In this document: piece by piece, positions 485 to 4,379 of the stretch
How positions within the stretch are numbered: position 1 is the stretch's first letter
Layout of the letters: each line of letters starts with the position of its first letter
Virus record (IMG/VR): IMGVR_UViG_3300046007_003048
Span: 1-20,244 of that record
Length of the DNA stretch: 20,244 bases
Strand: one strand, 5' to 3'
From: a virus
Notes under the pieces: model-generated
Database searches by the model: none
What the model saw: the letters and a program-made list of their open reading frames with translations, nothing else
What the model was told of the DNA's origin: nothing
Program-made: the position numbers and the translations under genes

Positions 485-2647
485 ATGAACGTCGAAGCGG
501 ACATTTCAGAGGAGCTTCTTGCTATCGGGCCGGAGGAGCTACAGAACGTAGCCTCCCCTGAAGCATATAGCCCTGCTGAATACGATAAAAAAGCCCGTTT
601 TCAGCGGGTACACGCATTCGTCCGCGACAGGTACACCATTGCCAAGGATGCCCGGATGCCGCATGAAACGCGGTGGCTCGAAGCATTGAGGGCATGGCGC
701 GGGGATTTATCGGCAGAAGAATCGGCAAATCTTGCTCAACTTCGGCAGTATAACCCCACTGTTTCAGAGATTTTCATCAAGATCACCAAGACAAAAGCAG
801 AAGCTGCCCATGCGCAGATTCTTGAAGTTTTGTTGAGTGATAACAAGTTCCCTATCGGTGTGAAGCCAACCCCAATTCCCCAAGGAATTGAAGAAGTTGT
901 ACACCTCACCCCTGAGCAACAGGGGCCGCAAGATGTGTATGGATACCCCGGCGATGGAAAAGAAATTCCTCGCGGTGCTACAGCATCTACCATGCTTTCC
1001 GGCTTTGGCGATACGCTGAAGCGTAAGATCGGCAATATAACCGGCAAATGGAAAGAAGGCCCCAGCCCGGACAAGACAAAAGTTCCGCAGGTTCACCCTG
1101 CCGAAGAAGCCGCTTACCGTATGGAGCGGCGCATCCAAGACCAAATTGAAGAAACCCGGCTTATTGATGATCTCATCAAGGCCACACAAGAGCAGGTGAT
1201 TTATGGCACAGGGGCAATCAAAGGGCCGTACTCCGTATATGAAACCATCCCAAAATGGGAAAAAAGCGGCTCCGGCGGGCAAAGGGTCTATGCCCCGCTC
1301 CAGCAGTTGTTCCCGAAAGCGCAGTTCGTAACCATCTGGAACCTGTTTCCAGACCCGGAAGCAACCGGCATTGACGAATGCGAATACCTGATTGAGCGCC
1401 ATTTGCTTGGCCCAAGCAAGGTTCGTGAACTGATGAAGCGGCCATTCTTTGATAAGATGGCTTTGCAGCGGATTCTGGATCAAGCCCCGGAACAACTGAC
1501 AGAGACGTGGGATTATCAATTAGATGATTCCAACCTCTCGGCAAAGCCCATGCGATATGAGATTATCGAATATTGGGGCACTTTGGATCGGGAAACGCTG
1601 GAAGCGTTGCAGGTGAATATCCCGGAAGAATACCGGGGTGCAGACACTGTACACGTCAACGTGTGGGTTGCCAAGGACGAGGTGTTGCGTATTGTTGTGA
1701 ATCCGTTCACGCCGTCACGGATTCCATACCAGATGTTCCCTTATGAGCGTCACCCTGCCCAAATCTGGGGCATTGGTGTGCCGGAGAACATGAGCGATAC
1801 GCAAGCGGCAATGAACACGCATTACCGCGCCGCTCTAGATAACCTGAAGTTTGCCGGTTCATGTATCTTTGAGGTAGATGAAACAAACCTGTCCCCCGGA
1901 CAGGATATGACGGTTTATCCTGGTAAGATGTTCTTCCGCCAAGGCGGGGCACCTGGACAAAGCATTTACTCGATCAGCTTTAACAATACGGCTCCGGCAC
2001 ATATCCAGATGTTCGACAAGGCAAGGCAACTTGCCGACGAGTCCACTGGAATTTATTCCTACAGCCACGGGGCAACTGGGGTATCAGGGACAACTCGAAC
2101 AGCTTCCGGGATGTCGATGCTGATGGGCGCTGCCGCTCTGAACATCAAAAAAGTTATCCGGAATATTGACCAGTATCTTCTTGAGCCTTTAGGGGCAGCT
2201 TACTTCCACTGGAATATGCAGTTCTCTGACGACATCGAAGTTGTTGGAGACTTGAAGATTATTGCCAAGGGCACGACTGCCCTTCTGCAAAAAGAAATCA
2301 AAACACAACGCCTGTTGTCGCTGGTTCAGGTTGGCGCAAACCAGATTATGGCTCCGTTCATTAATTGGCCGGAAATCATCAAAGAGATTGCGCGTAGCCT
2401 TGACCTCGACCCGGATAAGGTCATCAACGACCCACAACAGGCCATGCTTTATATGATGGCACTCAATGCAGGACAAGCACAAGGCGCTCAAGGAGCTGGC
2501 CTTCCTTCTGGTGGAGGACAGATGCCAGAGGGTGGAGGCGCTACTGGAGGCGTCAATCCAAGAGACGTTACAGGAAGTGGTGGCGGCACCATCGGAGTCG
2601 GAGCTTCTCCGATGCCAGGGGAAGCTGGCTTTTCTGGTAACACTTAA
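485..2647 (+). CDS. Portal protein
   Basis: This 720-residue protein is the portal, the dodecameric ring at one capsid vertex through which DNA enters and leaves and to which the tail attaches. The length fits the large portals of P22-like and marine podoviruses. Residues 35-125 contain a conserved N-terminal region (RWLEALRAW, then a YNPTVSEIF stretch). Residues 420-455 hold W-G-I-G-V-P-E-N-M-S-D-T-Q followed by N-x-H-Y-R-A-A-L-D-N, a typical portal core signature, and 535-550 hold TRTASGMSMLMGAA. Residues 135-205 look like a less ordered insertion. The last 55 residues are Gly/Ala/Pro-rich. That tail is overlapped in another frame by a plausible small gene (2466-2696). The ATG at 485 lies two bases after the previous stop. 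The family assignment is strong; the role of the tail is unknown. Confidence 0.92.
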   Translation: MNVEADISEELLAIGPEELQNVASPEAYSPAEYDKKARFQRVHAFVRDRYTIAKDARMPHETRWLEALRAWRGDLSAEESANLAQLRQYNPTVSEIFIKITKTKAEAAHAQILEVLLSDNKFPIGVKPTPIPQGIEEVVHLTPEQQGPQDVYGYPGDGKEIPRGATASTMLSGFGDTLKRKIGNITGKWKEGPSPDKTKVPQVHPAEEAAYRMERRIQDQIEETRLIDDLIKATQEQVIYGTGAIKGPYSVYETIPKWEKSGSGGQRVYAPLQQLFPKAQFVTIWNLFPDPEATGIDECEYLIERHLLGPSKVRELMKRPFFDKMALQRILDQAPEQLTETWDYQLDDSNLSAKPMRYEIIEYWGTLDRETLEALQVNIPEEYRGADTVHVNVWVAKDEVLRIVVNPFTPSRIPYQMFPYERHPAQIWGIGVPENMSDTQAAMNTHYRAALDNLKFAGSCIFEVDETNLSPGQDMTVYPGKMFFRQGGAPGQSIYSISFNNTAPAHIQMFDKARQLADESTGIYSYSHGATGVSGTTRTASGMSMLMGAAALNIKKVIRNIDQYLLEPLGAAYFHWNMQFSDDIEVVGDLKIIAKGTTALLQKEIKTQRLLSLVQVGANQIMAPFINWPEIIKEIARSLDLDPDKVINDPQQAMLYMMALNAGQAQGAQGAGLPSGGGQMPEGGGATGGVNPRDVTGSGGGTIGVGASPMPGEAGFSGNT

Positions 2648-2696
2648 GAATACGCTGAGGAAAAACATTGAACGGGCAAACACCAAGCGCGATTGA
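2466..2696 (+). CDS. Possible overprinted small gene in the +1 frame of the portal 3' end
   Basis: A 76-residue frame overlaps the last 182 bases of the portal gene and the first 29 bases of the next gene. Unlike the other out-of-frame readings it looks like a real protein: mostly helical, charged, with KELAFLLVED, EALLEASIQETLQEV and ELLRCQGKLAFL. The E-L-L-R-x-Q-G-K pattern resembles small podophage proteins that I recall being encoded just after portal genes; that match is from memory and unverified. It runs on past the portal stop as a Lys/Arg-rich helix. Against it, a TGA at 2454-2456 limits the start to the ATG at 2466, with no good ribosome-binding site upstream. Gly/Ala-rich DNA also tends to read as Glu/Leu in this frame by composition alone. 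A frameshift product fused to the portal is an alternative. Confidence 0.5.
   Translation: MQDKHKALKELAFLLVEDRCQRVEALLEASIQETLQEVVAAPSESELLRCQGKLAFLVTLKNTLRKNIERANTKRD
2656..2660 (+). promoter_or_regulatory. Ribosome-binding site supporting a TTG start
   Basis: TGAGG lies seven bases before a TTG at 2668. This is the reason for starting the next gene at TTG rather than at the ATG at 2752, which has only a weaker G-rich stretch upstream. Confidence 0.6.
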
Positions 2697-3894
2697 ACAG
2701 ACCCCCGTACAAACCGGGGTTCAGCCAGTGCAGCCCATTGGTGGGTCTGTCATGGCTCCTGTTTACGCGCCTAATGTTTCCTCGCAATACGCCAGCATTA
2801 CACCAAGCACAACGGAAGTAAACCTTCCTTCCGTGAAGCAGCCCGGAACGGGCGAGATGGTGGGAAGCATCGCTCAGAGTGTTGCTACCAAGTATATTGG
2901 GAAAGCCGCCCTGAGTGCTGTTAAGGGGTATATGGCTTCTGCGGGCACCGCTGCTGCAAGTACCGGTGCTTATGCCACAGGCGGCGCTCTTGGATTCAGC
3001 GCCCTGCCTTCCGTTGCTTCCGCTGGAACGGCTGCGGCAGGAACAGCCGCTGGAACCACAGCAGCAGCAACTGGCACATTAGGTTCAGCAGCAGCAGGAG
3101 CAAGTACAGCACTAGGCACCGTGGCAGCTTATGCCGGGCCAGTGGCTCTTGGTTACTTTGGCGGAACAATGATGTCCAAAGTAACCGGCGGTAACCCCGT
3201 CGGAAGCGGCATTGGCGGCGCGACGGGAGTTGCCATCGGCCTTGCGGCTGGTCTTGGCCCAGTAGGGCTGGTACTCGCTGGTATCGCCGGCAGCGCAATC
3301 GGAGGATTGTTTGGCAACAAAAAGCCTTCTGGCAAAGCCGCTGGAGGAGGGTTTAACCCATTCACGGGCAAAGTGTCTGGCTTTGAATCCAAAGGGCAAG
3401 ACAACGTAGGCGCTTGGAACGAACAGACCGGGCGCATTGTATCTTCTGTTGATCGGATGCAGACCATCTTGAATCTGGAAGACAAGATTTTCGAAGACAC
3501 ACAATTCATGCAAGGTAAGCTGGGTTTTAACCGTTTATCTTATGAAGTGAGTAGCCGAGATACTACGCAGTTTCACCTTGATCCCACCCAAGGGGTTGCT
3601 GGCGGCAAACGTCAGACACTCGGCGCATATGGGGTAGGCGACTTTGATACCCTACAGTTCAAAAGTGTTAAGGGAATTGCAGATCGACTTGCTCAATCAG
3701 GTCTGGTGACAGACCAGAAATACATTGACCGTATTTCACAGTCAAAAGCAACCAAAGTTGCTGATTTCCTTGATGATATTGAGTTTGGATTGAACCGGGA
3801 AGATATGCCGAAGGCGCAAGGCCCGTCTGTTGGGGCAATTACAGACGATCAATCTTTTGAAGAATTTTACCGCGAGTGGAGCAAAAACCGATGA
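2668..3894 (+). CDS. Gly/Ala-rich, probably membrane-active virion protein
   Basis: I cannot assign this 408-residue protein to a named family. The likely start is TTG with TGAGG seven bases upstream; the ATG at 2752 (28 residues shorter) is the alternative. Residues 1-60 are Pro/Gln/Thr-rich and probably disordered. Residues 90-172 are a small-residue run of Ala, Gly, Ser and Thr. Residues 178-216 form a glycine-zipper-like hydrophobic stretch including GPVGLVLAGIAGSAIGGLFG, of a kind seen in membrane-inserting peptides. Residues 225-408 are a soluble domain with no motif I know. Position between portal and scaffold, with a glycine-zipper segment, suggests a virion protein ejected with the DNA or involved in membrane passage; that is inference. 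It overlaps the next gene by the four bases ATGA. A perfect 11-bp inverted repeat lies inside it. Confidence 0.8.
   Translation: MNGQTPSAIEQTPVQTGVQPVQPIGGSVMAPVYAPNVSSQYASITPSTTEVNLPSVKQPGTGEMVGSIAQSVATKYIGKAALSAVKGYMASAGTAAASTGAYATGGALGFSALPSVASAGTAAAGTAAGTTAAATGTLGSAAAGASTALGTVAAYAGPVALGYFGGTMMSKVTGGNPVGSGIGGATGVAIGLAAGLGPVGLVLAGIAGSAIGGLFGNKKPSGKAAGGGFNPFTGKVSGFESKGQDNVGAWNEQTGRIVSSVDRMQTILNLEDKIFEDTQFMQGKLGFNRLSYEVSSRDTTQFHLDPTQGVAGGKRQTLGAYGVGDFDTLQFKSVKGIADRLAQSGLVTDQKYIDRISQSKATKVADFLDDIEFGLNREDMPKAQGPSVGAITDDQSFEEFYREWSKNR
3151..3186 (+). repeat. Perfect 11-bp inverted repeat inside a gene
   Basis: GGTTACTTTGG at 3151-3161 and its exact reverse complement CCAAAGTAACC at 3176-3186 are separated by 14 bases. 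Two G-U wobbles could extend the RNA stem outward. No U tract follows, so it is not a standard terminator. It lies in the Gly-rich segment of the host gene. Confidence 0.75.
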
Positions 3895-4379
3895 AGCAGG
3901 ATATGCTGGGGGGAACGGTTCCGGCAGGGGCAGAAGAAATGCCGCCGGAAGAAATGGCCCCAGAGCAAGGCGGAATGGAGGCTATGCCACCGGAAGCCGC
4001 TATGCAGCAGGCACCGGAAGAATCCCCCGCTGGCCCGGATGATGAGACAATCCGACAGAACGTATTAGAACATATCGCCTCTCTGACAGATGAGCAGAAA
4101 AACTGGATTCAGGCAAACCTTACGCCTGAAACGTGGGCGATGATCACCCTTTTGAATGGCCGAGCCGTTGGTGAGGCGCTCCGGCCATTCGTTGATGAAT
4201 CTGTTATCCTTGTGCCGATGGATCGGCGGGAGTTCCAGCAGATGTATCAACAAGGTTCGCAAGAAGCGGAAGCAATGAGCGGACAGAAGCCCTCCCAGAA
4301 ACCACAACAAAGCCCGGCTACCGCTCCGATGAGCGCCCCGGTGCAGCAACCAAATGCACCCGCAGCCACTTTGTCGTAA
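3891..4379 (+). CDS. Pro/Glu-rich head-module protein, unknown function
   Basis: This 162-residue protein lies directly upstream of the scaffold gene. I chose the ATG at 3891 because it makes an ATGA overlap with the preceding stop and has GGAG nine bases upstream; the in-frame GTG at 3876 is less likely. Residues 14-50 are a Pro/Glu/Met-rich linker with repeats such as MPPEEMAPE and MPPEAAM. Residues 51-125 are a predicted helical core containing LTDEQKNWIQANLTPETW. The last 35 residues are Gln/Pro/Ala-rich and disordered. There is no membrane segment. Small proteins with disordered ends between portal and scaffold are common in podoviruses and may take part in procapsid assembly, but I know of no established role for this one. 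Confidence 0.8.
   Translation: MKQDMLGGTVPAGAEEMPPEEMAPEQGGMEAMPPEAAMQQAPEESPAGPDDETIRQNVLEHIASLTDEQKNWIQANLTPETWAMITLLNGRAVGEALRPFVDESVILVPMDRREFQQMYQQGSQEAEAMSGQKPSQKPQQSPATAPMSAPVQQPNAPAATLS

Follow-up and report, generated by a model that had tools for sequence, protein, structure and literature searches.

A second reading frame at the portal 3′ end

The 3′ end of the portal gene in the virus record IMGVR_UViG_3300046007_003048 (positions 1 to 20,244, the whole stretch analyzed here and denoted the window) raises the question whether the same nucleotides encode two proteins. The original prediction, made from the window sequence, pointed to a second, +1 frame that overprints the last 182 bases of the portal gene and left open whether this is an overlapping gene or gives the portal an alternative tail through a frameshift, with the caveat that the nucleotide composition of the tail might by itself yield such a frame. 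The overlapping-gene reading is well supported by homology, conservation, dual-frame constraint and predicted fold. The features involved are the following.

485–2647, + strand: portal protein gene, SU10-type, 720 aa (matches to PF23899, phrog_332 and phrog_1216)
2466–2696, + strand: nested gene, 76 aa, in the +1 frame relative to the portal, from ATG 2466–2468 to TGA 2694–2696 (ORF list, independent profile, recoding controls, frozen silent sites, AlphaFold2)
2466–2647, + strand: dual-coding stretch, 182 nt, specifying the Gly/Pro/Ala C-terminal tail of the portal and the predicted helical hairpin protein (divergence at four-fold sites)
2616–2621, + strand: codons of Gln51 and Gly52, the core motif of the small protein; in the portal frame these bases fall in the codons for Pro-Gly-Glu (alignment of 95 members and sequence)
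2668–3894, + strand: next gene, 408 aa when counted from TTG 2668 as its presumed start (ORF; residues 1–408 matched by relatives)

The identity of the portal product is apparent from its matches to the Pfam family SU10_portal (PF23899, E = 6e-23) and to the PHROGs phrog_332 (E = 9e-63) and phrog_1216, a portal family (E = 1.5e-28); a portal scan of genome contigs gave no match. The location and frame of the nested ORF are as predicted in the ORF list, and the ORF indeed passes the portal stop, ending 49 nt beyond it; with TTG 2668 as the start of the next gene, it overlaps that start by 29 nt.

The product of the next gene matches no family in PHROGs or Pfam. It is Gly/Ala-rich, contains a hydrophobic glycine-zipper-like stretch (GVAIGLAAGLGPVGLVLAGIAGSAIGGLFG) and has only very close detectable relatives; possibly, it is a membrane-active ejection protein. 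On the other side of the portal gene, a 76-codon ORF without a PHROG match (252–482) lies between the presumed end of the terminase gene and the portal and contains a repeated PMPKKGG motif.

Homology, conservation and dual-frame constraint

The nested frame stays open in 20.9% of the synonymous recodings of the window portal tail and, in relatives, with a probability of up to 0.56, so that openness of the frame by itself is not significant. The compositional caveat thus holds for the existence of an open frame but fails for the sequence that the frame encodes. A profile was built solely from the annotated CDSs of 15 separate genes located behind the portal gene with little or no overlap (from phiM6, CRP-3, HMO-2011, RHph_N3_13, CHOED, MQM1 and others) and compared with 1442 ORFs from both strands of 14 nested sequences, the window included. 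The window ORF was recovered with E = 1.3e-5, as were 12 of the 13 other nested ORFs; the nested +1 ORF ranked at the top in 13 of the 14 sequences (E = 8e-15 to 4e-5), and the other matches begin at E = 0.58. The single nested ORF that was missed (locus L011, E = 5.1) was recovered by a broader family profile, and against the joint profile the window ORF reaches E = 7.7e-18. Its score of 21.7 bits was attained by none of 1000 synonymous recodings (best 4.6 bits) and by none of 1000 versions in which the synonymous codons of the tail were permuted among themselves (best 12.6 bits), with the same outcome for ten other nested genes. A tblastn search with a nested product as the query likewise retrieved separate post-portal genes in Rhizobium phages (E = 3e-5). 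Homologs outside the overlap, which the original prediction proposed to seek, thus exist as a separate gene in HMO-2011-type, Rhizobium, Vibrio, Aeromonas and Pseudoalteromonas phages.

These homologs, assigned by profile, include gp50 of Puniceispirillum phage HMO-2011 (N386_gp50), CRP-3 gp37, CRP-738 gp41, SmphiM6_11 of phiM6, EVB79_104 of RHph_N3_13, CHOED_090 and MQM1_05, all of which are annotated solely as hypothetical proteins. Gp50 and its counterparts occupy the same site after an SU10-type portal and resemble the window product in length, Gln-Gly core and predicted hairpin, but follow the portal gene with an overlap of at most 74 nt, in contrast to the 182 nt of dual coding in the window. 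The Pelagibacter phages HTVC103P, HTVC104P, HTVC115P and HTVC033P share with the window the nesting of this gene in the +1 frame of the portal tail, and their deposited records contain no CDS at this position.

To place the two layouts on a common scale, portal ends were compared across 290 sequences (the window and collected loci); a portal was found in 287, and after reduction 211 distinct, complete ends remained. The small gene occurs at 209 of them and is lacking at two, which belong to distant outgroups. The extent of its overlap with the portal gene is bimodal: 44 genes are separate (from a 156-nt gap to a 74-nt overlap), and 165 are nested (176–257 nt). Every one of the 165 nested genes is in the +1 frame and starts with ATG, and the frame is free of stops in all of them, down to portals that are only about 42% identical. 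Conservation of the nested protein accordingly extends across related aquatic phages numbering well above one hundred, and relatives at a greater distance have it as an ordinary, separate gene. In most phages with a separate gene, it overlaps the portal gene by 1–11 nt (coupling), and the gene order is portal, small gene, further genes that include the putative scaffold gene, and coat. The position of the small gene, between the portal and the scaffold/coat genes, is constant; in the window it adjoins the 3′ end of the SU10-type portal gene as well, being nested in the tail. The family consists of small (about 60–95 aa) proteins with a predicted helical-hairpin fold, the genes of which come immediately after the portal gene in podophages of the HMO-2011 type and their relatives, nested in the window lineage and the HTVC-type Pelagibacter phages and with little or no overlap in the others.

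The Roseobacter phage records CRP-1 (approximately 3815–4030, E = 1e-23) and CRP-345 (approximately 3764–3977, E = 5e-24) contain the small gene, but the interval from the portal to the gene that follows has no annotated CDS. In ctYwJ313, where the small gene spans 3825–4040, the annotated CDS 3900–4040 appears to be a truncated form of it, and another short CDS is called at 3809–3898.

Each third codon position of the portal falls on a second position in the nested frame, so that dual coding is expected to freeze silent sites. Between the window and locus L005, 3 of 38 four-fold sites of the portal differ in the overlap compared to 61% in the portal body (binomial p = 1e-11); between the window and locus L003, the difference is 0 of 42 compared to 24% (p = 1e-5). 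Across nested pairs ordered by falling portal identity, four-fold divergence is 0.04, 0.12, 0.23, 0.34 and 0.30 in the overlap versus 0.26, 0.48, 0.55, 0.65 and 0.60 in the portal body. No such drop is seen over the final 180 nt of the portal in separate pairs (0.28, 0.48, 0.59, 0.63 and 0.65 versus 0.25, 0.49, 0.54, 0.57 and 0.62 in the body). Along the gene, the two bins ahead of the nested ATG have divergences of 0.46 and 0.29, and the bin immediately downstream of it has 0.11. Silent change in the portal frame is thus strongly suppressed exactly over the ORF and shows no drop in separate relatives. Each of the three observations that the original prediction named as refuting was therefore looked for and came out opposite. 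The portal amino acid sequence is more variable in the overlap than in the body, so the freeze is not caused by low mutation or recent exchange.

The start site bears on the mode of expression. When pairing of the 15 upstream nt with the anti-SD sequence at less than −3.5 kcal/mol is taken as a Shine-Dalgarno-like site, 93% of the nonredundant nested starts (n = 115) possess such a site, compared to 18% of control +1-frame ATGs in portal bodies. The remark that no good ribosome-binding site is seen is therefore correct for the window, where the ATG is present and pairing is weak (−1.8 kcal/mol), but not for the family. The region 2451–2465 in the window clade (the window, L003 and L005) lacks the Shine-Dalgarno-like site that precedes nearly all other nested starts.

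Three other explanations of the ORF have to be weighed against these data. The ORF could be a compositional artefact, a functionless Glu/Leu-rich frame that opens whenever Gly/Ala/Pro codons are read one base later. The frequent openness of recoded tails is what such an artefact predicts, but no recoded control reaches the profile score, the product is homologous to separately encoded proteins, silent change is suppressed with a boundary at the ATG, and separate relatives carry the same portal tail with no suppression; the recoding control and the separate homologs refute this explanation, and its probability is close to nil. The silent constraint could also reflect a nucleic acid element (RNA or DNA), such as a signal that serves the next gene, with no protein involved, given that silent constraint by itself does not separate protein from nucleic acid function and that divergence is somewhat low already in the bin immediately before the ATG. 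Yet the constraint covers the entire ORF, and the +1 product has independently encoded homologs, which makes an element of this kind just as improbable.

Programmed frameshifting, whereby a +1 shift near the portal end would produce a portal with an alternative helical tail and no free small protein, is marginally more credible but still very unlikely. The +1 frame, the extension of the ORF beyond the portal stop and the weak initiation signal of the window itself are compatible with such a shift. Against it stand the invariant ATG and the conserved upstream Shine-Dalgarno-like site, the free-standing homologs with their own starts in other phages, and the onset of suppression at the ATG itself. 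The presence of an ATG of their own in the homologs, in 93% of cases together with a Shine-Dalgarno-like site, favors an independent gene, so that from the two alternatives of the original prediction the overlapping gene is supported and the frameshifted tail disfavored. Taken together, the data make it highly probable that ORF 2466–2696 is a real +1 gene over the portal 3′ end, with proposed internal initiation and, as its product, a putative small head-morphogenesis factor.

The small protein and its proposed role

The prediction of a helical 76-residue product agrees with the AlphaFold2 model (alignment of 95 members), a hairpin of helices 17–39 and 44–74 with a mean pLDDT of 85 and 93–98 in the core blocks. 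An independent alignment of eight separate genes yields the same layout (helices 16–39 and 43–60, pLDDT 91). Among the 95 aligned members, Gly52 is invariant and Gln51 is conserved in at least 90%; the columns with at least 90% conservation correspond to positions 20, 27, 41, 43, 44, 46, 51, 60 and 64 of the window product.

Sequence searches of Pfam, PHROGs, NCBIfam and PDB with the product and the family gave no meaningful match and no function-bearing family. Several candidate matches were considered. In the two best PDB sequence matches (C4HR1_4r), no stretch passes by itself; the Foldseek matches, at E = 0.09 or worse and VIA-align Z below 9, are generic for two-helix hairpins. The EscE/YscE type III needle co-chaperone family (TIGR02501) is approached by a separate member of the family, from CRP-13, at 16.8 bits, below the cut-off of 38.25, and is not matched by the window ORF. 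A match to phrog_1461 is confined to HMO-2011 gp50 (E = 9e-4, and 1.2e-4 in a second search), the window ORF having none.

The portal mRNA would carry an internal initiation site, the nested ATG, and ribosomes would consequently produce the small protein together with the portal. The small protein could function as a head-morphogenesis factor in the building of the portal ring and procapsid, perhaps as a chaperone-like partner of the portal or scaffold protein; as no function-bearing family was matched, this assembly role is proposed from the position of the gene and its constant linkage to the portal. A positional parallel is provided by Salmonella phage 7-11 (kuravirus-like), in which gp006, a small helical protein of 75 aa, is encoded between an SU10-type portal and a scaffold gene; it has no detectable sequence similarity to the window family. 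In the description of the virion structure of SU10 (PMC9509320), to which 7-11 is related, gp6 is the portal and gp9 the capsid protein; gp7, whose place in 7-11 is taken by the small gene, is not mentioned.

Origin of the nested and separate layouts

Overprinted genes are a known kind of viral gene, for example, Rz1 inside Rz. As in overprinted viral genes generally (reviewed in PMC8227390), a +1-frame gene lies over another gene here, with the codon usage of the portal frame nearer to that of the genome; what distinguishes the present case is the partner, a portal tail, and the separate homologs in sister phages. The new element is this nested arrangement with free homologs as an internal control. 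The search of open-licence papers, the HMO-2011-type literature included, found no mention of the nested gene, and the family appears to be known only as hypothetical genes of HMO-2011-type phages, with the nesting unreported.

The portal tail motif and the small protein each occur in nested as well as separate forms, which accordingly represent one family in two layouts. The motif scores 41–70 bits in all separate tails except three. The idea that the low-complexity portal tail was shaped by the other frame is not borne out, since separate relatives keep the same Gly/Pro-rich motif with no overlap.

With regard to the direction of change, the favored scenario is an ancestral overlap that was later resolved by tandem duplication. 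In its full form, with roughly even odds, the gene was born by overprinting within the portal tail in a podophage ancestor, and tandem duplication of the tail later freed it in the HMO-2011/Roseobacter/Rhizobium and the Vibrio/Aeromonas lines. The reverse history, in which the separate layout is ancestral and nesting arose later, when the portal frame ran into the small gene, is a less probable but substantial alternative. It is compatible with the portal tree, the rooting of which is uncertain and which requires two changes between the layouts; a grouping of every separate form into one clade is not rejected by the AU test (p = 0.117). It would also account for the lack of residual similarity to a duplicated copy in separate phages: a search for a decayed duplicate, in the form of the portal tail in the +1 frame or the small gene in the −1 frame, gave only the trivial overlap in HMO-2011, CRP-1 and CRP-345, and the coding-capacity test of separate portal tails is insensitive, the nested positive controls being weak too. 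However, the tail motif and the small protein are each homologous across the layouts; merging two existing sequences would need convergence, while a nested pair is separable by one tandem duplication. In addition, in 110 of 115 overlaps the portal frame is the one with codon usage nearer to that of the genome, as is expected of a small gene that arose by overprinting. Because the nested frame is no better in this respect than other +1 frames, this sign that the small gene is the younger of the two is only a hint.

The nested gene adds a conserved gene to four cultured Pelagibacter phages in which the deposited annotation lacks it, within an abundant marine group (HMO-2011-type and HTVC103P-type), and points to an unstudied small protein that accompanies the portal in nearly all portals examined. 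With nested and free versions of one gene available, these phages constitute a natural experiment on overlapping genes, in which the cost of dual coding and the formation and resolution of overlaps are measurable with an internal control. If the scenario of overprinting followed by escape is true, this family would be a natural example of virus gene birth in which nested ancestors and freed descendants coexist today.
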